From Nitrospirota bacterium (GTDB lineage Bacteria; Nitrospirota; Thermodesulfovibrionia; Thermodesulfovibrionales; UBA6898): DNA of 46,848 bases. The stretch spans positions 1-46,848 of the forward strand of contig JACRLQ010000005.1 in the NCBI GenBank assembly GCA_016215155.1, written 5' to 3'. Below the pieces are notes generated by a model. The model was not told the origin of the DNA, ran no database searches, and was given only the letters and a program-made list of their open reading frames with translations. Of this stretch, positions 2,915 through 46,848 are shown piece by piece (within the stretch, counting starts at the first letter, position 1; every line of letters begins with the position of its first letter). Position numbers and translations under genes: made by a program.

Positions 2915-2970
2915 AGAAACTATTTTCGATAAGAGATAGAAGAAAATCCATAAAAATTTGCGGAGGGCCC

Positions 2971-3681: not shown

Positions 3682-3718
3682 CAGGGTGTTGATGCGTCAC
3701 ACATATAGAAATTGACTC

Positions 3719-5413
3719 TTAGCCCAGTTTCATTCCTTCCAGTGCCCTGGCATTGTCAGGGGCGATTTTCAGGGCCTTTTCGAAGAGGCCTCTGGCCCTT
3801 TTAGGCAGACCGAGACCCAGATATACAAAACCGAGTTCAGATATATATTCAGCGTTGGACGGATCGAGGCTGTGGGCCTTTTCCAGCGCGTTTGCCGCGG
3901 ACTTGAACTTGTTCTGCCGGGCCAGCGACAGACCGTAATAATAATGGTGCTCCGCCGCCCCGCTGTAATAGGAGGCCTGTCCAAAGAGCCTTTCAGCCTC
4001 CTGGAAGTCGCCGTTATTGAAATATCTGGTCCCCTCTTCGAAAGCGGACCTGGCCTTCTCCCCGGCCCCGGCAATCCTTCCGGATCTGACGCCGGAACCA
4101 CCGTCATATTCTTTTCTTTTAGCCGGGTCCGAGAGGGTCTTGTAAGCTTCATAGACATAAGAAAATATATCGCTTAATTTGCCTTTTAGCGACCGGTCGG
4201 AAAGATAAAAGTGCATGTCGGGGTGGAATTTCTTGGCGGCCTTGTAATAGGCGGTCTTTATTTCAGCGACCGATGCGTTTCCATTTACCCCCAATATCTC
4301 ATAACACCCCAGACCTTTATATCTGCGGTGGGTATCTTCGATTATTTCACTGAAGGCTTTTTCCATGACCTTCCGCTGGTCCGGTTCCGCTTTTTCCTCT
4401 ATTATCTCTTCTATAACGTTTTGAGGGACATCGAAATCCCCGGAGTCGTCACGCAGTTCGATAAATCTGGTATTTATTAAGGCGTATATTGTTTTTAATG
4501 TCTCAAATTTATCGAGACTGGAGTTCGACAGGATCTCCCTTATGGATGTCCTGCCGTCTATCAGGGAGATCACTCTCTGGCCCGTCAGGTCGAGCCGTAA
4601 GTCCTGGAACAACGACAGCGGATCGTCCGAAAAATGGGGGATGCTGTCGAGGGACGGGACCTCCTCATTGATCCGCGCGGGGTTTTTGATCCCCTTGACA
4701 CCATAATAGATGAGGCTTGCGGCCGAGAGCTTCAGAGGTATGACCTCCTCCGGGGAAAGAGGCCGTTCTTCCAGGGAAAATACCCCTTCTTCCATAAGGA
4801 AGATACTTCTTATTATCTCCTCGACGCGGTATTTTTCGGCCGTTATGACCCACGTCGGATCGATATATCCGAGCCTCACAAGTATCATCCCCTGCTTCTG
4901 GCCTGTACGATTTTGCTCTGTTACGGACTGGTCGAATTGCTCGGACGAAATTACGCCTTCCCTGAGCAGGATGTTTCCGAGCCGGTCGCTGTCGCTGTTG
5001 GAGTCGGCATAGACAATGTCTCCGTCAACGATGAAGATCTTCTTGATCGTACCCTGTGCTTCGAAGGTCAGCACCCCGGTCTTCCTGCCCCTTTGGAGGC
5101 CGATCAATGTGTCCGAGAACCTGAAGTCTTTTGAAAAGCCCTTCACACGCATGACGTTTTTCACCCCGATCTTAAGGGATGACCTCTCTATCATGGACCA
5201 GACGACCTCTCCGCTTATCTTTATACCGGGGTCTTCAGCCGATAGTTCCACAATATCGCCTTTTCCCACCGGAATAATCCTGTCAAAGACGGCTGATGCG
5301 CCGTCGAGGGAATAATTGGTGAGTCTTCCGCTGAAGTATTTCTTCCTGAACTTAAGCTCAACGCCGGAATCTTTGGTATACCTGTTAAAAAGCCTGAGTT
5401 CTTTTTTTGGCAT
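3719..5413 (-). CDS. PilZ–DUF4388–J-domain–TPR protein
   Basis: Predicted 564 residues. Residues about 1-90 resemble a PilZ domain (RKKYFSGRLTNYSLDGASAV, RSSLKIGVKNV), which in the family can bind cyclic-di-GMP; the arginines before the motif are weakly placed, so binding is uncertain. Residues about 95-235 match DUF4388/PATAN-like sequence (LIGLQRGRKTGVLTFEAQG, VDGDIVYADS, LLREGVIS). Residues about 368-440 form a J domain with the catalytic HPD (CYEILGVNGNASVAEIK, KKFHPDMHF), so it may stimulate a DnaK partner. The C-terminus has three TPR-type repeats (EEGTRYFNNGDFQEAERLF; AANALEKAHSLDPSNAEYI; ARGLFEKALKIAPDNARAL). Cytoplasmic scaffold or signalling role is inferred. Transcribed alone, divergent from porGDAB. 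Confidence 0.8.
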   Translation of the reverse strand: MPKKELRLFNRYTKDSGVELKFRKKYFSGRLTNYSLDGASAVFDRIIPVGKGDIVELSAEDPGIKISGEVVWSMIERSSLKIGVKNVMRVKGFSKDFRFSDTLIGLQRGRKTGVLTFEAQGTIKKIFIVDGDIVYADSNSDSDRLGNILLREGVISSEQFDQSVTEQNRTGQKQGMILVRLGYIDPTWVITAEKYRVEEIIRSIFLMEEGVFSLEERPLSPEEVIPLKLSAASLIYYGVKGIKNPARINEEVPSLDSIPHFSDDPLSLFQDLRLDLTGQRVISLIDGRTSIREILSNSSLDKFETLKTIYALINTRFIELRDDSGDFDVPQNVIEEIIEEKAEPDQRKVMEKAFSEIIEDTHRRYKGLGCYEILGVNGNASVAEIKTAYYKAAKKFHPDMHFYLSDRSLKGKLSDIFSYVYEAYKTLSDPAKRKEYDGGSGVRSGRIAGAGEKARSAFEEGTRYFNNGDFQEAERLFGQASYYSGAAEHHYYYGLSLARQNKFKSAANALEKAHSLDPSNAEYISELGFVYLGLGLPKRARGLFEKALKIAPDNARALEGMKLG

Positions 5414-33272: not shown

Positions 33273-33506
33273 TTAAAGAGATTTTAAATACTCTCTGCCG
33301 ATTCCTGATTTTAAATATTTTTCTCTTATTCTTGCTTCGTTTCTCGTATCGTAGTTTTCTATCAGGATAATTCTAAATGGCGCATACGAACGAGTTGTTT
33401 TTTCTTTCTTATTATTATGTTCTGCTATTCTTCTTTCCGTATTATTAGTTAGACCCACATACATATAGTTTTTTAACAGGCTTTTAATTGCATAAATATA
33501 ATACAT
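33273..33506 (-). CDS. GIY-YIG nuclease-superfamily small protein
   Basis: Predicted 77 residues. The N-terminus MYYIYAIKSLLKNYMYVGLT gives the Y-x-Y / Y-V-G form of the GIY-YIG motif, then NNTERRIAEHNNKK with the conserved arginine and YAPFRIILIENY, REKYLKSGIGREYLKS of the UPF0213/UvrC-like single-domain group. The coding sequence is AT-rich and unlike the GC-richer neighbours, suggesting recent acquisition. It lies exactly between two copies of the tRNA-Leu 5' end. Such small orphan genes are often found next to tRNA or rRNA genes; their role is not established. Confidence 0.85.
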   Translation of the reverse strand: MYYIYAIKSLLKNYMYVGLTNNTERRIAEHNNKKEKTTRSYAPFRIILIENYDTRNEARIREKYLKSGIGREYLKSL

Positions 33507-33520
33507 TTAACTCCAATTTG

Positions 33521-33570
33521 AGCGCGCCTGCCTGCCGGCAGGCAGGTCTGCCAATTCCGCCACTCTCGCA
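33521..33570 (-). repeat. Direct-repeat copy 2: tRNA-Leu 5' fragment split by a 20-bp palindrome
   Basis: AGCGCG (33521-33526) and 33547-33570 together equal the 30-base 5' end of the tRNA-Leu gene at 33241-33270. Between them sits CCTGCCTGCCGGCAGGCAGG (33527-33546), a perfect 20-bp palindrome. No anticodon or 3' half of a tRNA follows, so it is a fragment, not a second tRNA gene. Confidence 0.85.
33527..33546. repeat. Perfect 20-bp palindrome inserted in the tRNA fragment
   Basis: CCTGCCTGCCGGCAGGCAGG is its own reverse complement. The insertion point is defined by comparison with the intact copy, where AGCGCG and TCTGCC are adjacent. Palindromes of this composition occur as dispersed insertions in many environmental genomes, where they show up as ACRQAG-type peptides when translated. 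Confidence 0.8.
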
Positions 33571-33911
33571 ATCATTGATTTTAAAGGATTATCTTCCTTC
33601 CGGTCAAACCTTGAAAGCTATTTTCCGCCAAAGTCTAACGGTCAGGATGTTTTCAGCTTTTCGGACCTGCCCCCTGCTTGCTTCCAAGAAGATATCCATG
33701 ATCTTCCGCGGTGAGATTCCATTACTGCTTTTCCTGCAATAACAGAATACGCAAATTATACCGGTACGGTATAATATAGTCCACGGCGGTGTTATTCGGG
33801 ACCGGTTTGTCGGAAACGGGACATTAGTTCGAGTTATCTGCGGCTATGCAGGACGTAACATTAAAAGTAAAAATAAATGGGAGAATGTTGGGTTCACCGG
33901 AGGACTGAAAT
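33571..33911. other. Gene-poor stretch with a 21-bp palindrome
   Basis: About 340 bases with no supportable gene. I see one palindrome, ATTATACCG-GTA-CGGTATAAT at 33755-33775, which contains a TATAAT on each strand and could be an operator or a divergent promoter core. No further RNA gene or terminator recognised. Confidence 0.5.
33755..33775. promoter_or_regulatory. 21-bp perfect inverted repeat with a -10-like TATAAT in each arm
   Basis: Nine-base arms (ATTATACCG / CGGTATAAT) surround GTA. Each arm contains TATAAT on one strand. It lies 136 bases before the small membrane-protein gene at 33912. No clear -35 box is paired with either TATAAT, so promoter activity is uncertain; an operator is equally likely. 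Confidence 0.4.
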
Positions 33912-34067
33912 ATGGCAATGAAGCTGATAGCTGTTGCAAACGTCATGATGATCCAGTATTTGATTACATCATACTACAATGTGCCTTATAAGTGGGCGTG
34001 GCTGGTGGTGACTGCAATCATCCTTCCCGCAATCCTGTTGTGGCGTTCGATGCCGCCCAATAAATGA
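33912..34067 (+). CDS. Small membrane protein (51 residues)
   Basis: Predicted MAMKLIAVANVMMIQYLITS followed by a second hydrophobic stretch (YKWAWLVVTAIILPAILLW) and RSMPPNK. The ATG is preceded by GGAGG at 33899-33903 with an eight-base spacer, which supports translation. One or two membrane segments. No family recognised. It is flanked by long untranslated stretches and has no partner on the same strand. Confidence 0.55.
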   Translation: MAMKLIAVANVMMIQYLITSYYNVPYKWAWLVVTAIILPAILLWRSMPPNK

Positions 34068-34183
34068 AATCGTAAGACAGGGAAAGTGCCACCTCTCAAA
34101 ATTCAATGATGAAACAGACGAAGCCCTTCCAGAGCAGGACGGGACTCGGACCAGCACCTCGATGCTCTATATCGGTCAACGAC

Positions 34184-35035
34184 TTAGGGCAGGGTGATAT
34201 CCGTTAATTTAAAGCCGGTCTTCATCAGCGACTTGGGGGTCATCATAAAGATCCTCAGCCGGGCATCCGGGGGCATAGGCTTATCGAATTCGTAAACCCT
34301 GATATCTCCGGTTTTCATTGTAGAGAAGCTCTTTATCGCACCGCCGCCGGCATCCAGAAATTCAAGTTCGATCACCTTCGAGTCGGGGTCGGCAATGTTC
34401 AGGATGACGCTGTTTTCACCGATCTCCATCATCCCCTCAAAAAGGGCCCCTAAGGCCTTGGCCATGGCCTCGCCAAGTTCCCTTATTATTTCCCCTTCCT
34501 TTGCCTTGACCTCTTTTTTCTGTTTTTCCTTGAAATCGTCGAACTGTTTTTTGGTCATTATAGCGATCTCAACGTGCGCGTTTTTCAGAGCGCTGTTTTC
34601 GACCGGTTTGCCGGCCATGGTCATGAACGCGGCTATTTCAGCTGTAGCATTGGGGTCTTTTTTTGGGGCGAAGATGACTATTTCCCCAGAAAGTTCGCTG
34701 ACTGAAGCCGCCTTTCTGGAGGGGTTTTTCAGTTTGATCTCTATCTCAGCCTGGCCCGAATTGTTCTCGTCAGGTTTTGTGAATTCGGTCCTCTTGTCCG
34801 AATCTTTTTTGAGGAGGTCCCGTCCGGTGTCGTCGATGGCTTTCGTGACGTTCATGCGGATGCCCCTGGCGTCGGCGATATTGTCACCCATGGCCTTTAA
34901 TTTAATTTCAAGCCCGGCGAAGAACTGGCCGGTGGTCCGCGAATCCCGAACTTCGCTGACTGATACCTTGACGTCTTCCGCGGAAACGGACGACGCGATA
35001 AGGGTAAGCATCACGCACAATATAAAATTTTTCAC
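34184..35035 (-). CDS. Exported protein of unknown function
   Basis: Predicted 283 residues from a GTG with GGAGG five bases upstream. A signal peptide is evident (MKNFILCVMLTLIASSVSAE). The mature part contains two beta-rich regions (VSVSEVRDSRTTGQFFAGLE; ENSVILNIADPDSKVIELEF) linked by a lysine/glutamate-rich helix (FDDFKEKQKKEVKAKEGEII). It resembles periplasmic proteins of unknown role; I do not recognise a family. Single gene, reading away from the BrnA/ORF6N remnants to its right. Confidence 0.7.
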   Translation of the reverse strand: MKNFILCVMLTLIASSVSAEDVKVSVSEVRDSRTTGQFFAGLEIKLKAMGDNIADARGIRMNVTKAIDDTGRDLLKKDSDKRTEFTKPDENNSGQAEIEIKLKNPSRKAASVSELSGEIVIFAPKKDPNATAEIAAFMTMAGKPVENSALKNAHVEIAIMTKKQFDDFKEKQKKEVKAKEGEIIRELGEAMAKALGALFEGMMEIGENSVILNIADPDSKVIELEFLDAGGGAIKSFSTMKTGDIRVYEFDKPMPPDARLRIFMMTPKSLMKTGFKLTDITLP

Positions 35036-35151
35036 GGTATCCTCCCGAATTATTCCTGAGTAAACTATATCACTTTTCGGGCTGATACGCCAGAGCCGGA
35101 TTTGCAGGCGTTACATCGCTCTTTCAGTTGATTTGAAAAAAACAGCCTATA

Positions 35152-35375
35152 ATGGATAGGACAAAGCGGAGGGGTATCCTTTCAAATCAAGAGACTATTA
35201 TCCCACTCTGGACAAGGATTTTTTTAAAAAGGCTGTCCTCTGGCCGGGCACAAAAAAACAGCTGACACTCCGCCTTGACCCGGACGTCATCGATTTTTTC
35301 AAGAAACAGGGTCGCGGTTACCAGACGACCATCAATGCCGTTTTGCGCAAGTACGTAGAGGCTCACATGCGCTGA
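35152..35375 (+). pseudogene. BrnA-like antitoxin, frameshifted near its start
   Basis: The frame ending at 35375 encodes a BrnA-type DNA-binding antitoxin C-terminus: FKSRDYYPTLDKDFFKKAVL, WPGTKKQLTLRLDPDVIDFF, KKQGRGYQTTINAVLRKYVE. No start codon exists in that frame after the in-frame TAG at 35157. An ATG at 35152 opens another frame (MDRTKRRGI) that joins the first if one C is added to the CC at 35178-35179. One-base loss, or a sequencing error, is therefore likely. The BrnT toxin gene that usually precedes it is absent. TATAAT overlaps the ATG, so this reading of the start is not certain. Confidence 0.6.
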
Positions 35376-35383
35376 AATGACTG

Positions 35384-35412
35384 ACATGATATTCCATTTT
35401 GGAATATCATGT
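35384..35412. repeat. 29-bp near-perfect palindrome in the ORF6N remnant
   Basis: Thirteen-base arms ACATGATATTCCA and TGGAATATCATGT flank TTT. It directly precedes the TGG-GGC-GGT (W-G-G) codons of the ORF6N remnant, the same position as the palindrome in the intact ORF6N gene. Confidence 0.85.
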
Positions 35413-35517
35413 TGGGGCGGTACACGCAAATGGCTCTATGCCGCCATACGCGGCCTTACGTCGCCGCCGGAGACTAAAAAGGGGAAAATAGGGTTTAAAG
35501 GAGAGAGGGAGGTCTGA
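35386..35517 (+). pseudogene. ORF6N-domain gene remnant
   Basis: A 43-codon frame reads MIFHFGISCWGGTRKWLYAA, then [20 protein letters not shown]. The second part equals the C-terminus of the intact ORF6N gene ([20 protein letters not shown]), and CWGGTRK corresponds to its SWGGIRR. The N-terminal domain and about 60 codons between the two parts are missing; the inner junction falls at a shared ATGC. It starts nine bases after the BrnA-like stop. Confidence 0.75.
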
Positions 35518-35865
35518 ATACAGACGACATATTTGTGTGGGATAAAAAGTTTCACTGATCCAATGCAATTTCTGGTATAATCAGCAACAAAAGGGGGGCC
35601 TGCAATAAAAACCAACGAGCATATAGCGCATGTCGAAAAAATCAATGTTCCGTCGCGCCTTTGTAGGGGCATTGACGTGCGGCCGTATCGGGTACGAACG
35701 CGTGCAGGGGAGAAGTCTTCTCCTCCCCTTGGCAAGGGGAGGGTGGGAGGGGTGGTTTGAGAAGCAGAGAATAGGGATTGACCTCCCCAACCCCTGCTTA
35801 AGGCACCTACTTCTGGTCCTTGTCAAGGAGGGGATGAAACACATTACGTGCAAGGGAGCGAGATC
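35518..35865. other. Gene-poor stretch holding a REP/MITE-like repeat
   Basis: No supportable gene. A TATAAT (near 35575) is present without a good -35. The right half is dominated by the repeat at 35722-35834. An open frame across this stretch runs into the DnaQ gene in a wrong frame and lacks coding character. Confidence 0.5.
35722..35834. repeat. REP/MITE-like element with GC-rich hairpin
   Basis: Begins with arms CCTCCCCTTG and CAAGGGGAGG around one base (35722-35742), continues with GGTGGGAGGGGT, and ends in CCTTGTCAAGGAGGGG, which is a degenerate mirror of the start. Such elements built on CTCCCCTTG/CAAGGGGAG are common intergenic repeats in environmental bacterial genomes. Confidence 0.55.
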
Positions 35866-35982
35866 ATGGCTTATGGAGCGAAAAAAACAGAACATGCCGG
35901 GGCAAAGAAAGGAAAAGGGGCATACCGGGGCCGAGGGGCGGCGGGACGTAGGACATCATTTGGGGGAGGTCTGGGAGTATAA
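35866..35982 (+). CDS. Small basic protein, possibly truncated
   Basis: A 38-codon frame beginning MAYGAKKTEHAGAKKGKGAY with AAGGGAG seven bases upstream of the ATG. The N-terminus recalls short conserved bacterial proteins starting GAKxTEHxGAKKGxGAY(W)G; in those the sequence continues as a lysine/arginine-rich tail. Here it becomes glycine-rich (RGRGAAGRRTSFGGGLGV), so a frameshift after codon 22 is possible. Function unknown. Confidence 0.35.
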   Translation: MAYGAKKTEHAGAKKGKGAYRGRGAAGRRTSFGGGLGV

Positions 35983-35983
35983 T
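35978..35983 (+). promoter_or_regulatory. Putative -10 box before the DnaQ–ORF6N–cas operon
   Basis: TATAAT stands 27 bases before the GTG start of the exonuclease gene. A -35 match is weak (ATCATT at 17 bases). GAGGGTG (35997-36003) provides the ribosome-binding site. Confidence 0.35.
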
Positions 35984-36009
35984 GAATATGACAATGAGGG
36001 TGAATTTCA

Positions 36010-36543
36010 GTGCTTCATGCCGATGATAGATTTATCTCTATTGACCTGGAGACAACCGGGCTTTTTCCTCACAGGGGGGACAGGGTGATCGAAATTGGCG
36101 CCGTCATGGTTTCCGACAGCGGAAATATCCAGGAATTCCATAGCCTTATTAATGTACGAAAACGTATTTCTTTAAAAGCAAGCCGGATTCACGGGATAAC
36201 AAACGACATGCTTTCTGATCAGCCAAAGGCGGAAAATATATTTCCACAGTTTATGGATTTCATCCGGGACGGCATTCTTGTCGCCCATAACGCTATATTT
36301 GACGTGAGTTTTCTAAGATATGAATTATCTCGCCTTGGCCTGCCATTCAATAACAGATACCACTGCTCTCTTGAGATGTGCAAAGCCCGCCTTCCAGAGT
36401 TACGAAATTACAGGCTCGGGACTGTTTATAAAAGCCTGTTCGGTAAACTTCCTGAAGGGGCTCAAATTCACCGTGCTTTAAGCGACGCGAAAATGGTGGC
36501 CGAGATATGGAGGGAGATTAATGGGGAGGGGAAATGGAAATAA
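36010..36543 (+). CDS. DnaQ-family DEDDh 3'-5' exonuclease
   Basis: Predicted 177 residues from a GTG, giving [20 protein letters not shown]. All catalytic residues of the DEDDh family are visible: D and E in SIDLETTG (Exo I), D in [16 protein letters not shown] (Exo II), and H and D in [14 protein letters not shown] (Exo III). The protein has only the exonuclease domain. Its last ten bases overlap the ORF6N gene, which lies seven bases before cas3, so it appears to be the first gene of the cas transcript. In some type I-E systems DnaQ is fused to Cas2, and DnaQ-like exonucleases trim prespacers in E. coli; a similar role here is inference. Confidence 0.88.
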
Positions 36544-37040
36544 TAGTGCAGAAGGAAGTAATCGAGGGAAAGATCTATATGATCAGGGGGCATAAAGTTA
36601 TGCTGAGCACGGACCTTGCCGAGCTTTACGAGGTGCAACCAAAGGTCCTGATGCAGGCCGTAAAAAGAAACATAGAACGATTTCCTGCAGATTTCATGTT
36701 TATGCTGTCAAATCAGGAGGTTATAAACTTGAAGTCACAATTTGTGACTTCAAGTTGGGGCGGGATTCGCCGTGCAAACCCTTATGCCTTCACTGAGCAA
36801 GGCGTTTCCATGCTTTCGAGTGTCCTGCGCAGTAAACGAGCTGTGCAGGTCAATATCGAGATTATGAGGACTTTTACAAAGATCAGGGATATGCTCTCCA
36901 GTCACAAAGACCTCGTCAAACGTCTCGATGACCTTGAGAGGAAGTACGATAACCAATTTAAAGTCGTGTTCGATGCGCTACGCGGCCTCATGTCGCCGCC
37001 TGAGACTAAAAAGGGGAAGATAGGCTTTAAAAGAGAGTAG
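36534..37040 (+). CDS. ORF6N (KilA-N-related) DNA-binding protein
   Basis: Predicted 168 residues. The ORF6N domain spans about residues 8-100: [81 protein letters not shown] coiled helix ([20 protein letters not shown]) and the tail [11 protein letters not shown] follow. ORF6N proteins are common in phages and mobile regions, where they are presumed DNA-binding regulators. Coding sequence contains a 31-bp palindrome. Overlaps dnaQ upstream and is seven bases from cas3. A relic of a second copy lies at 35386. Confidence 0.88.
36726..36756. repeat. 31-bp palindrome inside the ORF6N coding sequence
   Basis: Arms AACTTGAAGTCACAA and TTGTGACTTCAAGTT match over 15 bp around a single T. It encodes the [10 protein letters not shown] residues and ends at the first base of the tryptophan codon of SWGG. 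Confidence 0.9.
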
Positions 37041-37047
37041 GGGGACA

Positions 37048-39693
37048 ATGAGCGGATTATATTACAAGTATTGGGGTAAGGCTGAAAAGGATGGGGCTGG
37101 GTATCATCTGTTGCCGTATCATTGCCTGGATGTGGCGGCGGTGGGGGCGGTATGGTGGGAGCAAAGCCCCGTTATTAGCAGGAGCTTTTGTACTCATACT
37201 TCATTGTCTTCCGCTCAGGTACGCGCATGGATTCTGTTTTTCATTGCTCTTCACGATTATGGAAAATTCGATATTCGATTTCAGCGGCGAGTTAAACCAA
37301 TATGGCAAACACTTTATCCTGATGCCGGAACGTATACCGGCAATCTTCCATCCGAGCGGGACTGCAAAGAATATTATCACGGCAACGCCGGGCTATTCTG
37401 GTTTAAGCAAGATCACGGCTCATTGCTTGGCATTGAATCTGCAGAGCCCGATGCTGGCCTGTCCTTTCTGGATTTCTCAGAGGATTCTTATTCTGACCAA
37501 TGGCAGACGTGGAAGCCGTGGCTTGAGGCTGTTGCCGGTCATCATGGTCAAGTAATAAAGTCTGAAAATATAAGTCCTGTTTCATTGCCGCCGACTTATG
37601 ATACCCGCCTGGCGCAGGTTGACCTACAGGCGAGAAAAGAATGGGTTGAGGCATTGGGAGAGTTGTTCTTGCAGCCCGTCGGCCTGTCTGTCAATGATTC
37701 ACCGCCTCAGTGTTCACCTTTGATGGCCGGGTTCTGTTCTGTTGCCGACTGGCTTGGCTCAAGGTGTGCTGATGGAAACTTTCTATTCCACCAGAATACG
37801 CAGGATTTGCAAGGCTACTTTAATGAAAAGATTAAGGCTGACGCTTACAGAATTTTGGAATTCTCCGGGATAATCGGAAAGGCACGCTTATATAATGGGG
37901 TGTCTGCCTTGCTTAAGGACGATCAGCAGCCGCGCTCACTGCAAACAATAGTTGACGATATTCCCCTGAAGCCGGGATTAACACTTGTTGAGGCTCCTAC
38001 AGGAAGCGGAAAAACAGAGGCCGCGCTTTCCTATGCCTGGCGTCTACTTGCGGCTGGTTTTGCGGACTCTATCGTTTTTGCCCTCCCGACACAGGCGACA
38101 GCGAATGCAATGCTTGACCGTCTTGAATGTATCGCACCTCTGCTTTTTGAAAAGCATTCAAACGTGATCCTTGCTCACGGCTCCGCGCGATTCAATGAGA
38201 AATTCTCAGCATATAAAAAAGCGGCAATTGAGGGGTATGAAGAAGACGGCTGGATTCAGTGTAGTCAATGGCTGGCGGAAAGCCGCAAGCGTGTCTTTCT
38301 CGGACAAATAGGCGTCTGTACTGTTGATCAGGTGTTGATTTCAGTTCTGCCGGTAAAGCATAGATTCGTTCGCGGCTTTGGAGTCGGTCGAAGCGTCCTG
38401 ATTGTGGACGAGGTTCATGCCTATGACTCATACATGTACGGTCTTCTGGAAGAGGTCTTAAAACAGCAAAAGTCGGCTGGCGGATCTGCAGTGCTTCTTT
38501 CAGCCACGCTTCCCGAAATTCTGCGCGCACGACTGCTTGGCGCATGGGGCTCGGAGACAATCCTGTGTGATAAACAGGCAGTTTATCCCCTCATTACATG
38601 GACTGAAGGAGAAAAGTCCAAACCGTTTAGGCTTGCCGAAGACCAAATGCCTTTAACCCTGAGCGTGAGGTTGGAACCGTCTATATCTAAGGATATGCTG
38701 CCTGATGATGTTTTGCTCAATCGAATAATAACTGCTGCAGAGTCAGGGGCTCAGATTGCGATTGTCTGCAATCTTGTCGATGATGCTCAAATAATCGCTA
38801 AGAGGTTGAGAGAAAAGACCTCACTGCCGGTTGATCTGTTCCACGCGCGTTTTTGCTATAAACATAGGCAGGAGAAAGAACTGGACGCGATTGCTCGATT
38901 CGGCCCAAATGGCAGCCGGGATGTGGGGCGCATCATGGTAGCAACGCAGGTTATAGAGCAGTCTCTCGATCTTGATTTCGATTGGCTTATCACACAGCTT
39001 TGTCCGATCGACCTTCTTTTTCAACGGATGGGCCGCTTGCACCGCCACGACCGGCCAAACCGACCGTTTGGATTCGAGAAACCGATATGCACGGTTCTCA
39101 TGCCCGAGGGCCATGATTACGGACTTCATGGTGTGATCTATGCCAATACTCGCGCTCTCTGGCGTACTGCAAGAAAGATTCTCAATGCTCCGGAAAACAT
39201 GGTGAATTTTCCAAATGCTTATCGTGACTGGATTGAAGAAGTATACCGGGAAGACCCGTGGGGGGATGAACCTGTTGATATCGATGCTGCGTATGAGAAG
39301 TTTAGGGATGAGGTAGAGTTTGTAAAACGCTGCAATGCCCAAAGCATGATAAATTCCGCGATCAATCCATTTCCTGATACTGACCATACAATTACGGCAG
39401 TTACACGCGATGGGGAGATGAATTTAACCGTCTTGCCGTTCTGTGCTGTTTCAGAAGGAACTATGATGATGGACGGAAGTATTCTGGAGACGGTAGACGA
39501 ATATAAGCGGCTTGAGGTGCTGGCATTGAACAGCCTTGGGGTTCCAAAGTCGTGGAGAGGTTATCTTGGCGAAGCGGATAAAGAGGGGAGGTATTGGCTT
39601 GAAATGAGAAAAGACGGCGATTTTTTCTCAACCACATCAAAAGGCAAGAACTTTCGTTATAACAAAGACACAGGAATGGAGAAAGAAAAATGA
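37048..39693 (+). CDS. cas3: Type I-E Cas3 (HD nuclease/helicase)
   Basis: Predicted 881 residues, the usual size. N-terminal HD nuclease: YHCLDVAAVG, IALHDYGKFDIRF (HD at residues 69-70), VAGHHGQ. Helicase domain: Walker A VEAPTGSGKTEAAL (about 314-327), DEVHAYDSY (Walker B, from about 454), SATLP (about 484), and QVIEQSLDLDFDWLITQL followed by QRMGRLHRHDR (motif VI). A C-terminal Cas3 domain follows. It degrades DNA once recruited to the Cascade R-loop. Start ATG has AGGGGG six bases upstream. It overlaps cas8e by ATGA. Confidence 0.97.
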   Translation: MSGLYYKYWGKAEKDGAGYHLLPYHCLDVAAVGAVWWEQSPVISRSFCTHTSLSSAQVRAWILFFIALHDYGKFDIRFQRRVKPIWQTLYPDAGTYTGNLPSERDCKEYYHGNAGLFWFKQDHGSLLGIESAEPDAGLSFLDFSEDSYSDQWQTWKPWLEAVAGHHGQVIKSENISPVSLPPTYDTRLAQVDLQARKEWVEALGELFLQPVGLSVNDSPPQCSPLMAGFCSVADWLGSRCADGNFLFHQNTQDLQGYFNEKIKADAYRILEFSGIIGKARLYNGVSALLKDDQQPRSLQTIVDDIPLKPGLTLVEAPTGSGKTEAALSYAWRLLAAGFADSIVFALPTQATANAMLDRLECIAPLLFEKHSNVILAHGSARFNEKFSAYKKAAIEGYEEDGWIQCSQWLAESRKRVFLGQIGVCTVDQVLISVLPVKHRFVRGFGVGRSVLIVDEVHAYDSYMYGLLEEVLKQQKSAGGSAVLLSATLPEILRARLLGAWGSETILCDKQAVYPLITWTEGEKSKPFRLAEDQMPLTLSVRLEPSISKDMLPDDVLLNRIITAAESGAQIAIVCNLVDDAQIIAKRLREKTSLPVDLFHARFCYKHRQEKELDAIARFGPNGSRDVGRIMVATQVIEQSLDLDFDWLITQLCPIDLLFQRMGRLHRHDRPNRPFGFEKPICTVLMPEGHDYGLHGVIYANTRALWRTARKILNAPENMVNFPNAYRDWIEEVYREDPWGDEPVDIDAAYEKFRDEVEFVKRCNAQSMINSAINPFPDTDHTITAVTRDGEMNLTVLPFCAVSEGTMMMDGSILETVDEYKRLEVLALNSLGVPKSWRGYLGEADKEGRYWLEMRKDGDFFSTTSKGKNFRYNKDTGMEKEK

Positions 39694-41213
39694 ACCTATT
39701 GAAAGACGAATGGATACCGGTTCGTCCGCTCCCAAAAGGCAGCCCGGCAAAGATTTCATTGCGGAGTCTGCTGTGCGGTGATGAGAAGTGGGAAGTTTGC
39801 CTGCCAAGGGACGATATGGAGTTGGCTACAATTCAGTTACTTGTTTGCATTACACAAACGCTTTTCATTCCTAAAACAGCCGCCGAATTGAAACAGCGTA
39901 TAGCCGGACCTCTGTACGAGACAGAGTATGATACCGCCATAATCCCTTATAATGACTGGTTTCAGCTTGATCATCCTAAATACCCGTTTATGCAGGTGCG
40001 GGGTGTTACAGCTACTGAAGTGACACCAATGGATAAATTGCTTGCCGGATTAAATAGCGCCACAAACAGTTGTTTTGTCAATGAATCCGGGATCGGAGCA
40101 ATTCTCTGCAGCGGATGTGCGTCTATTTCTCTTTTTAATCAAGCAACCTGCGCTCCTAGTTTCGGTGGTGGTTTTAAGGCAAGTTTGCGGGGTAGTGCCC
40201 CGATTACCACTCTTATTCAAGGGATGCACCTACGTCAAACCATATGGCTTAATGTATTGTCTGAAGATCACGTTCTCTCCCAATTACCATGGTTCAAAGA
40301 GACTGCGCTGCAAAAACCGACATGGATGGACCCCGTAAAGTCGGGAGATACAATACCGTCACAGCGGCTCGGATTGGTTCGTGGTCTTTTTTGGCAGCCT
40401 GCTTATGTGGAGCTTATGCCGTCAGAGAAAGCCTCATTCTGTGACTGTTGCGGAGTATTGACGAGACAGTCATATATAGGTTTTAAAAAAGCGAAATTCA
40501 ATTATGTCGTCAATGGAACCTGGCCGCATCCGCATTCCCCTCGGGTTACAAGCAACAAGAAAGGTGAAATCCAAGAGAAGTTTGCTGCCTTTACTACTGC
40601 TTCTCCCTCATGGACGCAATTAAGCCGTTTTGTTGTTCGACAGCAAATGAGCGATGAGAATGCAGTTGGACAACAACCTGCCGCTGTTGTACTTCAGGCA
40701 CGGCAGTTCTCCAGTCGCCTGCACCTTTTGATTGGAGGCTATCGAAACAATCAAGCATCAATTCTTGAACGGCGGCATGAGGTCTTTACTCTCAACCACG
40801 GTTGGGAGGGCAATACGACAGCCGTTCACTATTTGGTTCAACAGGGTTTGGGGTATCGGGATGCGCTTTATAAGGCATTATATGTTTTTTCAAAAGGAAT
40901 TAAAGACATTAAAGGAGCTGGGATAAAGCTTAATCAGGTCGCTGAAATGCAGTTCTACCGGAGATCTGAACCTGTGGTACAGGATACACTTGCGCGGATA
41001 GACTTCAATGACCCAGCGCCTGCTTTAGCTTGCATGCAAGTGTCGTTGAAGAGCTTGGCAAAAGACTTATTTGATGAATCTATCCGCCCATATCTGCAAG
41101 ACCCTGAACTGATCAAGACGATGGCTGTAGCAAGGCGAACCCTCAATAAACATTTAAGAAATCTCGAACCACAGAAGGACGAAGGAGGGAATAATGGAAC
41201 ACCAGTTGCCTGA
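39690..41213 (+). CDS. casA: Type I-E Cascade large subunit Cse1 (Cas8e)
   Basis: Predicted 507 residues. The N-terminus MNLLKDEWIPVRPLPKGSPA, the segment LLVCITQTLFIPKTAAELK, and YPFMQVRG, ATNSCFVNESGIGAILCSGC, TTLIQGMHLRQTIWLNVLS and QPAYVELMPSEKASFC are characteristic of Cse1/CasA. A cysteine cluster (FCDCCGVLT) suggests a zinc site, as in some family members. The subunit recognises the PAM and recruits Cas3. The start overlaps the cas3 stop and its end overlaps the start of cas11 by 20 bases. Confidence 0.95.
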   Translation: MNLLKDEWIPVRPLPKGSPAKISLRSLLCGDEKWEVCLPRDDMELATIQLLVCITQTLFIPKTAAELKQRIAGPLYETEYDTAIIPYNDWFQLDHPKYPFMQVRGVTATEVTPMDKLLAGLNSATNSCFVNESGIGAILCSGCASISLFNQATCAPSFGGGFKASLRGSAPITTLIQGMHLRQTIWLNVLSEDHVLSQLPWFKETALQKPTWMDPVKSGDTIPSQRLGLVRGLFWQPAYVELMPSEKASFCDCCGVLTRQSYIGFKKAKFNYVVNGTWPHPHSPRVTSNKKGEIQEKFAAFTTASPSWTQLSRFVVRQQMSDENAVGQQPAAVVLQARQFSSRLHLLIGGYRNNQASILERRHEVFTLNHGWEGNTTAVHYLVQQGLGYRDALYKALYVFSKGIKDIKGAGIKLNQVAEMQFYRRSEPVVQDTLARIDFNDPAPALACMQVSLKSLAKDLFDESIRPYLQDPELIKTMAVARRTLNKHLRNLEPQKDEGGNNGTPVA

Positions 41214-41658
41214 TTTTATGTTGCTATACAACGCATGGAGGCAGTTGTCACCCGGTCAGCAGGCCGAATTGAGGCGTGTCAGCAAACCGGATGAATTGCT
41301 GGGAACCCCGGCATTTTACCGGCTTTTCAGTGGCGCTGCAAAAGAGGAGTGGGGGAAAAAGGCCCTTCAACGATTGATCTTTTGTCTTCCTTGTGTTACT
41401 CACACGGATAAGCAGGTCAGTATCGGAGCTGCGCTTGCGCGTTACGAGCGAGGTGTGAGCGAAAAGAGACTCTTTCAGATAATTAGATCAGAAGCACCCA
41501 ATGACTTAATCCAAATGAGAAGAATTCTGAAAATGGTTGAGCCGGTCATAAACTGGCCTATGGCTGCAAAGCTGCTGTGGTATTGGAACACGCGCAGCAA
41601 ACGCGATTTACTTGAAGATTATTTTATGAGTCAAACGGCTGATAAAAAAGCGAGCTAA
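41194..41658 (+). CDS. casB: Type I-E Cascade small subunit Cse2 (Cas11)
   Basis: Predicted 154 residues, mostly helical and basic: LRRVSKPDELLGTPAFYRLF, LIFCLPCVTHTDKQVSIGAA, VSEKRLFQIIRSEAPNDLIQ. In Cascade two copies stabilise the crRNA-DNA hybrid. The ATG is preceded by GAAGGAGGG within the end of cas8e. The call follows from position, length and Cse2-like sequence pattern. Confidence 0.9.
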   Translation: MEHQLPDFMLLYNAWRQLSPGQQAELRRVSKPDELLGTPAFYRLFSGAAKEEWGKKALQRLIFCLPCVTHTDKQVSIGAALARYERGVSEKRLFQIIRSEAPNDLIQMRRILKMVEPVINWPMAAKLLWYWNTRSKRDLLEDYFMSQTADKKAS

Positions 41659-41672
41659 AAAGGAGGATGTCA

Positions 41673-42759
41673 ATGAACAAATTTTATCAACTTTCACGTC
41701 GTTATCTCTCACAGTCCGTCATGTCTGAACAGGGATGACATGAATATGCAGAAGTCATCAGTATTCGGGGGCAAACGGCGGGTGAGAATTTCAAGCCAAA
41801 GCCTAAAGCGGACCATGCGCAAAAGCGATTATTACAAACAGCATCTCGGAGAGGCAAGTATTCGCACAAAAAAGCTCGGCGATCTTAAGGATCAGATAGT
41901 CGAGTCATTAACGGACCGTTACAAGTCTGATCTTGTCCTGAAGGCAATGACGGTTATTGCGGGTAAAGACTTTAAGGCTGAAGTTGCAGTTGAAGGCGAT
42001 GCTGTTGCGCCATGGGTTACGGCTGAAGTGGCCTGGTACTGCGAACAGATCAACAAATACGGCGATGATGAAAAGAAACTTGCCAAAGAACTAAAGAATG
42101 AGACGGTAGCTATGCGGACAGCTTTAGCCTCTGGTGTCGATATAGCGCTTTCTGGTCGTATGGCAACATCAGGTCTTATGAGTGAATTAGGAAAAATTGA
42201 CGGAGCGCTAGCCGTTGCCCATGCGATCACTACGCATGCGGTTGACGCAGACATCGACTGGTTCACAGCCGTTGATGACTTGCAGGAATTGGGATCAGGA
42301 CACTTGGACACACAGGAATTTTCGAGCGGAGTTTTTTATCGCTATGCAAGCCTTAATCTTAGACAGCTACAGGAGAATCTTGGCAATGCCACTCGCGAAA
42401 AGGCTCTTGAAATAGCCGCCCATGTACTTCACATGCTGGCGACCGAAGTTCCGTCCGCCAAACAGCAGAGCTTTGCGGCGCATAATCTCGCCGACGTGGC
42501 GATGGTCTCCTTTTCCGACCTTCCGGTATCGCTGGTGAATGCATTCGAAAAGCCGGTAAAGATGGAGAATAATGGCGGATTCCTTAAGCCCTCAATCGAT
42601 TTGCTTCATGAGTACTGGACAAGCGTACACAATGGGTATGGACTTGATGAAATTTGCTGTGAATTCGCTCTTGGTCCCGTGACTCAGCCAAAGGGGATTA
42701 ATAAGGCCGATAATCTTAATGTCTTGAAAGAATGGATAAAGAAAGACGGTAAGGAGTAA
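41673..42759 (+). pseudogene. casC: Type I-E Cascade backbone Cas7 (Cse4/CasC), apparent one-base frameshift near the start
   Basis: AGGAGG precedes the ATG at 41673, but that frame stops after 21 codons. The expected N-terminus is found one base on: [20 protein letters not shown], leading directly into [20 protein letters not shown]. The two frames join if the four T's at 41682-41685 are three. The rest (41740-42759) is intact: [60 protein letters not shown], ending near 361 residues in total, normal for Cas7e. Translation from the internal ATG at 41740 would lack the first beta strand. The extra T may be real or a homopolymer sequencing error. Confidence 0.85.
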
Positions 42760-42764
42760 AACTT

Positions 42765-43424
42765 ATGCGTGATTTTCTTATTCTTAAACTTCAAAGCCCC
42801 ATGCAAGCATGGGGCGAGCATACATTTGAAGGTCTAAGGCCATCTGCCAATTTTCCAACCAGAAGCGGATTATTGGGACTGCTCGGCGCATGTCTCGGTA
42901 TCAGACGCAATGAACCGGACCGGCAACAGCAACTTGCGGACAGCATAGGGATTGCAGTCCGGCAGGATTATGTGAAGGATCGGCAAATACTGAAGATAAC
43001 CGATTATCATACTGTTAGAAACGCACGGGCGGATTACACAGGGAAGGAGAGGCCGCACGAGACCATACAGACATGGCGCGAATATCTTTTGGATGCTCAT
43101 TTTACTGTTGCCGTTTGGAATCATACTGACGCTGTGATCAGGCTTGATGACCTCGAATTAGCTGTTAAGCAGCCATTCTTTACCCCATTTCTCGGAAGGC
43201 GAAGCTGTCCTATATCCCGGCCGCTTTTTGAAACACGGATGAAGGCGGCAAATCCGCAGGACGTCTTGCGAGAAATTGTGCCTAAGGCCGGGATAATTTA
43301 TAGCGATGAAGGAGATGAGACCGTGCGCAGATTCCGTGTGCGGGACATTCCTCTTGTCCGGCAGCCTCGTCAGTTTGTCGGTCGAAACATCTTTGTCTAC
43401 GGAGGTGAGCATGTTCCTGAGTAA
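42765..43424 (+). CDS. casD: Type I-E Cascade subunit Cas5e (CasD)
   Basis: Predicted 219 residues. The N-terminus (DFLILKLQSPMQAWGEHTFE) and GLRPSANFPTRSGLLGLLGA, then ACLGIRRNEPDRQQQL, are diagnostic of Cas5e, which caps the 5' handle of the crRNA. FTPFLGRRSCPISRPLF is the usual C-terminal motif. Starts with GGAG at 11 bases; the end overlaps cas6e by 14 bases. Confidence 0.96.
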   Translation: MRDFLILKLQSPMQAWGEHTFEGLRPSANFPTRSGLLGLLGACLGIRRNEPDRQQQLADSIGIAVRQDYVKDRQILKITDYHTVRNARADYTGKERPHETIQTWREYLLDAHFTVAVWNHTDAVIRLDDLELAVKQPFFTPFLGRRSCPISRPLFETRMKAANPQDVLREIVPKAGIIYSDEGDETVRRFRVRDIPLVRQPRQFVGRNIFVYGGEHVPE

Positions 43425-44016
43425 AGTTCTGATAACGGGCGCAGCCTGCCGTAATCCTTACGAAATTCATAGGGCGGTGTGGGAACTGTTTCCAGTGAAT
43501 GCCGTCGCTGACCGGGATTTTCTCTTTCGTGTTGAAAAGTCCGATGGCAGACAGGCGGAAATCCTGATGCAGTCTGTCAGGGAACCAATAAATAATCAAG
43601 AGACGGCGCAAATAATTGCATGTCGGGCATATCCGATGTCATTACGCTCAGAGCAAAGACTGAGGTTTTTGCTTGTGGCTAACCCGGTCAAGACTATTAA
43701 TGACGAAAGGGGGCGACAGAACGCCAAGGGTGAAATCAAAAAGTGCCGTGTGCCATTGATTGATGATGAATCTCAACGCGCCTGGCTCGTCAGAAAACTT
43801 GAAAACGCCGCCTCACTGGAATCCCTGATTGTGGACAATAAGTTGCCGCTATATTTCAGAAAGCTCAGGGAAGATCGTGCAGGAAAGATTCAGCCTGTTA
43901 TGTATCAGGGGATTCTTCAGGTTCAAAAGGCTGATATATTCCAGAAGGTTATCCTACACGGAATCGGCCCAGCGAAGGCCTTTGGCTGCGGGCTATTGTC
44001 TCTGGCGAGAGCATGA
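43411..44016 (+). CDS. casE: Type I-E crRNA endoribonuclease Cas6e (CasE)
   Basis: Predicted 201 residues from the ATG with GGAGGTG three bases upstream, giving MFLSKVLITGAACRNPYEIH. The histidine of YEIHRAVW is the conserved His near position 20 that acts in catalysis in CasE. The C-terminal glycine-rich signature is present (LHGIGPAKAFGCGLLSLARA). It cuts the repeat hairpin of pre-crRNA and stays bound. This is the last of the interference genes; a 131-base gap follows instead of the usual direct passage to cas1. Confidence 0.95.
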   Translation: MFLSKVLITGAACRNPYEIHRAVWELFPVNAVADRDFLFRVEKSDGRQAEILMQSVREPINNQETAQIIACRAYPMSLRSEQRLRFLLVANPVKTINDERGRQNAKGEIKKCRVPLIDDESQRAWLVRKLENAASLESLIVDNKLPLYFRKLREDRAGKIQPVMYQGILQVQKADIFQKVILHGIGPAKAFGCGLLSLARA

Positions 44017-44058
44017 TACAGAGTCTTATGCTGGTGAGGCGGGTATAAGTGTTTGGTA

Positions 44059-44091
44059 TTGTCCTGACAAAGGGTAGGTACAATTTGTACC
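44059..44091. promoter_or_regulatory. Two adjacent palindromes before the YhcG nuclease gene
   Basis: TTGTCCTGACAA (44059-44070, arms of five) and GGTACAATTTGTACC (44077-44091, arms of seven around T) lie in the 131-base gap after cas6e. They look like operator sites. The centre ACAATTTGT of the second also forms the centre of the palindrome in the ORF6N gene. CTGACA (44064-44069) resembles a -35 box but no good -10 follows. Confidence 0.45.
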
Positions 44092-44147
44092 ACTCCTTTG
44101 AAGTTCAGTCGTCGACAGCATTGCGCCAAGATGGAGGTGCTTTAGGA

Positions 44148-45312
44148 ATGTCAACAAAACTTGTTCATTATTCCGAACTGCTCGGCCAGATCAAGCTCCG
44201 AATCCGGCAGGGACAGACCCGTGCTGTACTTTCCGCCAATTCGGAGCTGATCAGCATGTATTGGGACATTGGGCGGATACTTCACGAGCGACAGCACAGG
44301 GAAGGATGGGGCGCGGCTGTCATACCCCGGCTGTCACGTGATCTGCGCAATGAACTTCCTGAAATAAAAGGGTTTTCTGAGAGGAATATAGGGAGGATGA
44401 TTGCATTTTACCGCGCATATCCCGCTCTCGGTCCATTTTTGCCACAGGCTGTGGCAAAAATGCAGTCGATGGGAAATAGCGACGATATAAAAATGCCACA
44501 GGCCGTGGCAAAATTGCCGACCGGTGATTCTTCGGAAATTTTGCAGCAGTTTGTTGCACTAATTCCATGGGGGCATAATATCCTTCTCATGGAAAAGGTC
44601 AAGGATATGGAGAGCCGCCTCTGGTACATGCAACAGACTATCAACCAAGGCTGGAGCCGCGATGTTTTGGGTCTTATGATCAGAAGCAAAGCGCATGCTC
44701 GCCAGGGCAAGGCGACACATAACTTCGAGAGCCGATTGCCTTCTCCCCAGTCGGATCTGGTACAGCAGGCGTTAAAAGACCCATATATCTTCGATTTCCT
44801 TACTCTTGAAGAGCCGTTCCATGAGCGGGAGTTAGAGGCAGGACTGATCCGCCACTTGGAGAAGTTTCTGCTGGAATTGGGGCAGGGTTTTGCATTTGTT
44901 GGGCGACAGTTTCACCTCGATATCGGAGATGAGGATTTCTATATTGACCTGCTTTTCTATCATCTCAGGTTGCGCTGCTTTGTGGTGATAGAGTTAAAAA
45001 AGGGCGTATTCAAGCCTGAATATGCAGGCAAGATGAATTTCTATTGCAATGTCGTGGATGATCGGTTACGACATGAGGGGGATAATCTTACTATTGGATT
45101 AATCCTTTGCCAGGATAAAAAGTCATTGCTTGCAGAATATACGCTGCGTGGCGTCGACAAGCCGATTGGCGTTTCGGAATACGAACTGACACGCGCTCTG
45201 CCCGACTGTCTGAAGTCAGCCCTTCCCAGTGTTGAAGCGATTGAGCTGGAATTGGGCGAGCATGGGGCACGATCAAAAAAATATAAATCAAAAAGATCAG
45301 AGAGGATCTCTC

Positions 45313-45320
<8 letters not shown>
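44148..45320 (+). CDS. YhcG/DUF1016-family PDDEXK nuclease embedded in the cas operon
   Basis: Predicted 390 residues from the ATG at 44148 (GGAGGTGC and AGGA upstream). The DUF1016 N-terminal helical domain is clear (YSELLGQIKLRIRQGQTRAV, ISMYWDIGRILHERQHREGW, VIPRLSRDLRNELPEIKGFS, NIGRMIAFYRAYP). The C-terminal YhcG nuclease domain shows D in EDFYIDLLFYHLRL and E-x-K in FVVIELKKGVFKPEY, the PDDEXK core. The linker holds two near-copies, LPQAVAKM and MPQAVAKL, each encoded by a palindrome. Its stop overlaps the start of cas1 by eight bases, so it is co-expressed with the adaptation genes. Family members occur as solitary restriction- or defence-like nucleases; a place inside a type I-E operon is unusual. 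Confidence 0.9.
44436..44460. repeat. 25-bp perfect palindrome inside the YhcG coding sequence
   Basis: Arms TTTTTGCCACAG and CTGTGGCAAAAA flank one G. It encodes F-L-P-Q-A-V-A-K in the linker between the two YhcG domains. Confidence 0.9.
44494..44510. repeat. Second, imperfect copy of the YhcG linker palindrome
   Basis: TGCCACAGGCCGTGGCA repeats the core of the palindrome at 44436-44460 with one arm mismatch (CCG for CTG). It encodes M-P-Q-A-V-A-K in the same frame, 34 bases after the first copy. Confidence 0.85.
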
Positions 45321-46522
<1,202 letters not shown>

Positions 46523-46594
46523 TTCTCTCATGTTTTTGTCGGTAGATTTCAGCTCTTTGAAAATCGACTTATAATTCAGTATGTTATAAGAAGT
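46523..46594 (+). promoter_or_regulatory. CRISPR leader
   Basis: A 72-base AT-rich stretch between cas2 and the first repeat. TTGAAA (46557-46562), a 17-base spacer and TATGTT (46580-46585) could be the promoter for pre-crRNA, starting close to the first repeat. The array is read away from cas2, so new spacers would enter here. Confidence 0.65.
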
Positions 46595-46848
46595 ATGTTC
46601 CCCGCATATGCGGGGATGAACCGATTTCGGCAACCTCGTCAGGCCTCAGGAGCACATGTTCCCCGCATATGCGGGGATGAACCGACTCTGTCCGCCAAAG
46701 ACCTGTCGGACGACAAATGTTCCCCGCATATGCGGGGATGAACCGTTTGCAGTAATGAAGGTGGCTGCTATGGTGCTATGGTCCCCGCATATGCGGGGAT
46801 GAACCGCAACCACGGCCTTATCAACCCGATCGATATGCATGTTCCCCG
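46595..46848 (+). CRISPR. Type I-E CRISPR array, four complete repeats plus one cut by the window end
   Basis: 29-bp repeats at 46595-46623, 46656-46684, 46717-46745, 46778-46806 and a partial one from 46839, with 32-bp spacers between (61-base period). Each repeat starts ATG(T/G)TCCCCG, contains the 16-bp perfect palindrome CCCCGCATATGCGGGG and ends ATGAACCG, which resembles the E. coli type I-E repeat. The fourth repeat has G for T at 46781. The four spacers are all different, and I saw no match to the window by eye. The array continues beyond the window. Confidence 0.97.

Follow-up and report, generated by a model that had tools for sequence, protein, structure and literature searches.

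ParB, Spo0J and Noc proteins bind palindromic sites, and PrrC in EcoprrI is a guest toxin housed in a type I restriction operon. YhcG (DUF1016, COG4804) has been a predicted nuclease since 2005, in a study that saw only one restriction-linked homologue (PMC1189080), and PADLOC carries it as PDC-S02, which is a candidate phage defence label only. Toxins linked to CRISPR loci have been discussed (PMC3506569), the CreTA systems have been reviewed (PMC12737573), and a report on Bacteroides fragilis places RhuM genes beside cas1, between cas1 and cas9, in type II-C loci (PMC5704556). In the open-licence literature, we found no description of YhcG ahead of cas1, of a self-palindrome code, or of coding palindromes in the YhcG, RhuM, ORF6N and BRO families. 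Here we analyse a yhcG gene in a CRISPR-Cas locus of a Nitrospirota bacterium; the whole stretch of DNA under analysis, 46,848 nucleotides of contig JACRLQ010000005.1, is referred to as the window.

A yhcG gene between the interference and adaptation genes

The window terminates in a full CRISPR-Cas locus, in which cas3, cas8e, cas11, cas7e, cas5e and cas6e are followed by yhcG, cas1, cas2 and a CRISPR array; all eight cas genes and the array are present, placing the locus in type I-E (Table 1). The yhcG product matches the Pfam families DUF1016_N (E 1.4e-38; 132.6 bits, cut-off 32.8) and YhcG_C (E 6.2e-65; 218.3 bits, cut-off 32.5), as well as the PADLOC profiles PDC-S02 (E 6e-143) and CAS-associated PD-DExK. 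Pfam and gene order thus bear out the preliminary description of a yhcG/DUF1016 PD-(D/E)XK gene within a type I-E cas operon, parting the interference from the adaptation genes. The span given there, from 44017, had to be corrected: 44017 is the first base past cas6e, an in-frame start codon is absent there, and 44017-44147 is intergenic. The gene starts at ATG 44148, with GGAGG ahead of it at about 44133; an extension to GTG 44049 was rejected, as it would cross a conserved intergenic block.

Table 1 Features of the type I-E locus and associated palindromes, in window coordinates
Feature	Position	Strand	Remarks
ORF6N-domain gene preceding cas3	36534-37040	+	coding palindrome AACTTGAAGTCACAATTTGTGACTTCAAGTT at 36726-36756
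cas3	37048-39693	+	
cas8e	39690-41213	+	
cas11	41194-41658	+	
cas7e	41740-42759	+	
cas5e	42765-43424	+	
cas6e	43306-44016	+	final interference gene ahead of the slot; probably begins at 43411
Conserved block of 50 nt ahead of yhcG	44069-44118		perfect 7+1+7 palindrome GGTACAATTTGTACC at 44077-44091
yhcG (DUF1016), 390 aa	44148-45320	+	Pfam, alignment, AlphaFold model, fold comparison
Predicted recognition helix ERNIGRMIAFYRA, codons 78-90	44379-44417	+	palindrome bases covary with residues 82, 83 and 86
Main yhcG coding palindrome CATTTTTGCCACAGGCTGTGGCAAAAATG, 14-bp arms, in linker	44434-44462		inverted-repeat scan and homologue complementarity
Second, imperfect palindrome copy (second PQAVAK motif)	44494-44516		direct repeat D5, inverted repeat I2
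cas1 (type I-E), start ATGACTGA	45313-46236	+	8-bp overlap with yhcG stop
cas2	46217-46522	+	
CRISPR array	46595-46848		61-nt period

YhcG comprises a helical N-terminal domain (residues 1-186), a linker (about 97-127) that is disordered in the AlphaFold model, and a PD-(D/E)XK nuclease domain (206-360). The active-site pattern D267, E282-x-K284 is intact, as had been stated; neither D267 nor K284 varies across 45 homologues, in some of which E282 is replaced by D. Comparison with the counterpart in the genome SURF_45 (pN 0.144, pS 0.64) points to clear purifying selection on yhcG. Sequence searches returned no homologue in the PDB, and no small partner (antitoxin) gene lies beside yhcG in the slot between cas6e and cas1. 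A sigma-70 scan yielded no more promoter-like sites than shuffled sequences, and an Rfam scan gave no credible match.

The stop of yhcG overlaps the cas1 ATG by 8 bp (45313-45320), as the preliminary description noted in proposing that cas1 translation depends on yhcG. Such dependence is possible but would not be special to yhcG, since unrelated genes in the same position show the same 4-bp and 8-bp overlaps. The start of cas1, ATGACTGA, contains TGA in both other frames; because this conserved sequence supplies the stops, the overlaps cost the preceding genes nothing, and we rejected the overlap as a sign of special yhcG-cas1 coupling.

Further genes stand at the margins of this and related loci. 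A DEDDh exonuclease gene (window 36010-36543) lies just 5' of the ORF6N gene and cas3, and its relatives (53-65%) precede cas3 in G176, G146 and G258 despite differing interference genes; prespacer trimming is one possible role. Directly 5' of cas3 in two loci, L132 (G198; 3338-3937) and L137 (G258; 2647-3318), are genes that by eye resemble REP-associated Y1 transposases, and one type I-E locus (L093, G382; 46-672) has a second, partial cas1 5' of cas6e.

Rapid exchange of guests ahead of cas1

Type I-E cas1 genes were sampled from four sets of genomes, namely Nitrospirota (396), the order (176), Desulfobacterota (395) and Pseudomonadota (398), the last two phyla according to the centre genomes' names. 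Where cas1 is at least 80% identical to that of the window, a guest gene or its remnant separates cas1 from the last interference gene in 25 of 30 loci, from Nitrospirota and Desulfobacterota; below 80% identity, a guest was found in 1 of 58 (Fisher p 4.6e-15 for slot occupancy; earlier count, 23 versus 5). Most numerous are BRO-N genes, in 10 loci plus one with an internally deleted copy (G669). YhcG occupies three slots (the window, SURF_45 and G732, the last with a copy of the canonical subfamily), and a truncated, decayed DUF1016 gene lies in a fourth (G130). The remaining contents are RhuM (two loci), BrnT/BrnA (two), BrnA with MNT and HEPN (one), and, in one locus each, Fic, an addiction antidote protein, a 23S-IVP protein and DUF433 with DUF5615, while the slot of G502 holds palindromes only. 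The BrnTA, Fic and HEPN-MNT guests are ordinary toxin-antitoxin genes.

The guests lie on the correct strand, closely in register with cas1, and the Cas1 tree demands 18 changes of slot content. Loci L084, L083 and SURF_45 have near-identical Cas1 proteins (branches of 0.016-0.021) and carry BRO, BrnTA and YhcG, respectively; the nearest relative of the window Cas1, from the same genus, is preceded by BrnT/BrnA. Guests of the slot are thus exchanged far faster than cas1 evolves, in a recurrent process of occupancy, replacement and decay. The survey also answers the objection that yhcG might be a unique insertion in this genome: YhcG is found in the slot of SURF_45 (type I-E) and G732, decayed in G130, and in type I-C and I-G loci (L006 and L007). 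Accordingly, yhcG is not an isolated case, and its product is not a dedicated Cas protein. With relatives' slots holding guests as unrelated as BrnT/BrnA, BRO, RhuM, Fic and HEPN-MNT, a specific role of YhcG in spacer processing, as had been suggested, is unlikely.

BRO and RhuM guests were also observed 5' of cas4/cas1 in other CRISPR loci of the same genomes (L254 and L258 in G1239; L252 in G438), so that the slot habit is not confined to type I-E. A 13.5-kb contig, JACRPZ010000047.1 (G234:C30), is 99.4% identical to window 33309-46812, although its genome is assigned to another family, and reflects either a recent transfer or mis-binning. As this near copy includes non-cas flank, the locus (L003) was not counted as independent support.

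The intergenic space before yhcG has features of its own. The 50-nt block of the window is 94% identical to one in SURF_45 (L004, 7920-7969), both blocks hold two palindromes resembling those within BRO genes, and the block recurs in the empty slot of G502; because this identity is retained where synonymous sites are near saturation, the block is probably functional. The possible yhcG operator proposed in the preliminary description is the perfect palindrome GGTACAATTTGTACC, in a block kept at a distant locus. GGTACAATTTGTACC occurs once in the source genome; GGTACAAWTTGTACC, considered as a multi-copy element, is likewise single-copy there and was dismissed as such. In the cas6e-cas1 gap of G502 (L160), five distinct palindromes follow one another in tandem. 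Each resembles the palindrome inside the coding sequence of a BRO or RhuM allele, a different allele in every case, and the row is either a fossil record of past guests or an operator array.

YhcG homes and movement between CRISPR subtypes

The 80 closest YhcG genes were drawn from GTDB genomes, and those most similar to the window copy belong to CRISPR loci, namely SURF_45 (I-E), Hainich H32 (I-C) and SKS1 (I-G). Between SURF_45 and the window, YhcG is 75% and cas1 89% identical, with cas7, cas8, cas5 and cas6 at only 41-47%. The CRISPR-linked genes, together with a gene at a contig edge (L005), form one clade (SH-aLRT 99), and its 23 sister genes lack CRISPR. Most commonly, YhcG resides in type I restriction operons, with hsdM on one side and hsdS on the other: N6_Mtase lies upstream in 22 of 55 cases and HsdS downstream in 17 of 54, and in an example hsdM-yhcG-hsdS operon, 4-bp overlaps flank yhcG on either side. 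The second yhcG of the source genome (L002; G000:C1:191113-191580) belongs to the canonical subfamily. An obligate ORF6N-YhcG pair was also considered and rejected, ORF6N being among the neighbours in some cases.

In the Hainich H32 type I-C locus (L006), BRO, YhcG and RhuM lie between cas4 and cas1. The end of its RhuM gene runs into ATGACTGAACCCATACTTCCTCCACTA, which encodes MTEPILPPL, the first nine codons of type I-E cas1; 30 of 32 nt match G130, with divergence thereafter. Across the loci, no further peptide resembling the start of type I-E Cas1 was seen that is not followed by that gene. The cassette therefore came from a type I-E slot and has moved from one CRISPR subtype to another.

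Hypervariable palindromes within coding sequences

Outside the CRISPR array, the longest inverted repeats of the window lie in yhcG (arms of 14), in the ORF6N gene (36726-36756, arms of 15) and in a decayed ORF6N copy (35384-35412, arms of 13). When 78 yhcG homologues were anchored on one PQAVAKL codon, the palindrome proved 82.7% complementary over 13 positions, compared with 14-33% for centres shifted by 1-9 nt. Several positions stay paired via different base pairs, that is, the palindrome is conserved as a palindrome while its arms vary, and 59 of 80 yhcG genes beat all 20 of their synonymous-codon shuffles. One high centre was likewise found in each of the other families, ORF6N (0.879, 33 genes), RhuM (0.807, 24) and BRO (0.793, 29), over background means near 0.25 (sd 0.055-0.072, 1034-1740 centres). 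Hypervariable coding palindromes are therefore present in all four families, being 79-88% complementary against about 25% elsewhere. No palindrome was detected in the canonical YhcG subfamily (L002 of the source genome and L158), so that it is a property of a large part of the YhcG family only.

Non-complementary cells comprise 20 GT/TG and 41 AC/CA, with no sense-strand G-U excess; given also that like palindromes stand outside genes, a role at the level of DNA is likelier than an RNA hairpin. Two yhcG genes (L031 and L039) have at least four palindromes in a longer linker. The decayed second ORF6N copy (window 35384-35512), the 3' end of which repeats 36979-37044 (86%), has its own 13-arm palindrome, ACATGATATTCCATTTTGGAATATCATGT. 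On viral contigs, only two ORF6N relatives were found.

Covariation of the palindrome with a predicted recognition helix

We set the bases of the palindrome against all variable columns of the protein other than those of the linker. Covariation links position 5 of the palindrome to residue 83 (normalised MI 0.63, z 8.4) and to residue 86 (0.49), while position 9 is linked to residue 82 (0.66, z 9.0) and position 4 to residue 142 (0.48, z 6.5). The pairings read almost as a code: R83 goes with G and other residues at 83 with T in 69 of 71 genes, K82 with C in 69 of 71, and F or I142 with C in 70 of 71. In independent pairs, taken on a tree built without the helix and palindrome parts, the base changes the same way with residue 83 in 11 or 12 of 12 (p 0.0005), and with residue 82 about 10.4 of 11 agree (p 0.002); those control columns of the C-terminal domain that could be read showed no trend. 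Synonymous third bases of conserved codons near the helix have no association with the palindrome, and linkage through segment exchange was therefore rejected as the cause. Residues 82, 83 and 86 share one helix (78-90) in the AlphaFold model. In RhuM, ORF6N and BRO, the palindrome associates with predicted helix-turn-helix helices (24-32 genes each, kinship ignored).

ParB, Spo0J and Noc DNA-binding domains make up most of the first twelve fold matches of YhcG residues 1-186, with Z up to 9.3 and an rmsd of 3.0 over 113 residues, although Z values of 8-9 for a helical domain are within the range of common arrangements and are at times reached by chance. Foldseek returned no match of the YhcG model below E 0.001, and sequence methods gave no link from DUF1016_N to ParB; by itself, the modelled resemblance is suggestive only. 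Judged from the covariation, YhcG probably binds the palindrome within its own gene, with CATTTTTGCCACAGGCTGTGGCAAAAATG (44434-44462) as the proposed target. Substitutions R83Y/A86R are predicted to shift the half-site from CTGTGGCAA to CTGTTGCAA, and G82K to shift TGGCAA to TGGCAC.

Proposed role and alternative explanations

We propose, with a probability of roughly 0.7, that yhcG is a mobile guest of defence operons that, in the slot before cas1, would bind its own palindrome and act as a self-regulated second-line defence, tying the output of cas1-cas2 to itself. The N-terminal domain would be a DNA-binding domain of the ParB/Noc type, gripping the palindrome in its own gene as a dimer. 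Carrying its own site, a guest would bring its regulation along to any new location, and binding of the protein within the gene ahead of cas1 would also affect transcription into cas1-cas2; control of the neighbouring genes by YhcG may thus follow. The nuclease domain would cut DNA bearing the cognate palindrome, or cut upon disturbance of the operon. In a broader version, for which we see the chances as even, YhcG, RhuM, ORF6N and BRO would constitute one guild, each member recognising the hypervariable palindrome of its own gene as an identity tag for autoregulation, exclusion or cutting of incoming copies of the same allele, and, before cas1, control of spacer acquisition.

The main rival is a guard or addiction arrangement, in which YhcG would be a latent toxin nuclease that an intact CRISPR-Cas complex, or one of type I restriction, keeps silent, and that is freed when this system is lost or inhibited, like PrrC in EcoprrI or CreTA with type I CRISPR. 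It is compatible with the toxin-antitoxin genes of the slot, known modules of this kind (BrnT/BrnA, MNT-HEPN, Phd-PIN, DUF433-DUF5615) occupying the same position, and it draws on the chief home of YhcG, the type I restriction operon, and on the case made for a coupling between suicide nucleases and immunity loci (PMC3506569). However, YhcG has no adjacent antitoxin partner and shares one cassette with BRO and RhuM, and its self-palindrome code is compatible with a guard but not predicted by it; we regard this arrangement as possible, though somewhat doubtful. We think it unlikely that the cas6e-cas1 junction just tolerates insertions, with mobile defence genes arriving as neutral passengers by chance: quick turnover and the decayed guests of G130 (truncated DUF1016), G669 (internally deleted BRO) and G502 (empty, with palindromes) would be expected, but slot use is confined to one cas1 lineage (25/30 versus 1/58), the guests keep the right strand and a tight register with cas1, and yhcG is under purifying selection.

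Since yhcG adjoins and overlaps cas1, and Cas4 is one of the many proteins that its nuclease domain resembles (8d3q, Z 7.3), YhcG could be taken for an accessory adaptation nuclease that, as a Cas4 analogue, trims or selects prespacers for Cas1-Cas2. This has little to recommend it, for unrelated non-nucleases refill the slot while Cas1 remains near-identical, no stable association with cas1 holds across the subtype, and most YhcG genes reside in restriction loci or elsewhere; we consider it highly improbable. Finally, instead of binding a protein, the palindrome might fold into a hairpin in the mRNA, or might have arisen merely as a by-product when mutation was templated by a quasipalindrome. 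Template switching can perfect short palindromes, and the linker encoded there is predicted to be disordered. Yet the mismatches show no sense-strand G-U enrichment, like palindromes stand outside genes in the slot, and covariation is strong with specific helix residues and absent at synonymous sites, all of which makes a hairpin or by-product very unlikely.

One CRISPR lineage thus has a defined site before cas1 for swapping defence and toxin-antitoxin genes, which ties the adaptation genes to whichever guest is in place, and the guests preserve fossils of moves between CRISPR subtypes. Four families that are widespread, and for the most part catalogued only as candidate defence or phage-regulator genes, bear strong signs, at the sequence level, of binding a palindrome in their own gene through a readable protein-DNA code. 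Families of unknown function hereby become directly testable, as to which site and which residues, and the own-gene palindromes suggest why these families are so mobile and variable.

Comparison with known systems

With its full-length DUF1016_N and YhcG_C domains and intact nuclease motif, the protein encoded ahead of cas1 belongs to the YhcG/DUF1016/COG4804 family (PDC-S02). The RhuM genes of B. fragilis type II-C loci are likewise guests in a cas operon beside cas1, although in another CRISPR type, and the available part of that report describes neither slot turnover nor a palindrome (PMC5704556). As with ParB and Noc and their parS and NBS palindromes, the best structural match of the YhcG N-terminal domain, a palindrome would be the target; in YhcG, by contrast, the putative site is a hypervariable one inside its own gene that evolves in step with the protein, and a nuclease domain follows. 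Like PrrC in EcoprrI, YhcG between hsdM and hsdS is a guest nuclease lodged amid restriction genes, but by its fold it is a DNA nuclease. CRISPR-linked toxins and CreTA are also toxin-type genes embedded in CRISPR-Cas loci, whereas the genes that replace one another here, always at the same place before cas1, are whole type II toxin-antitoxin pairs and DNA-binding guests.
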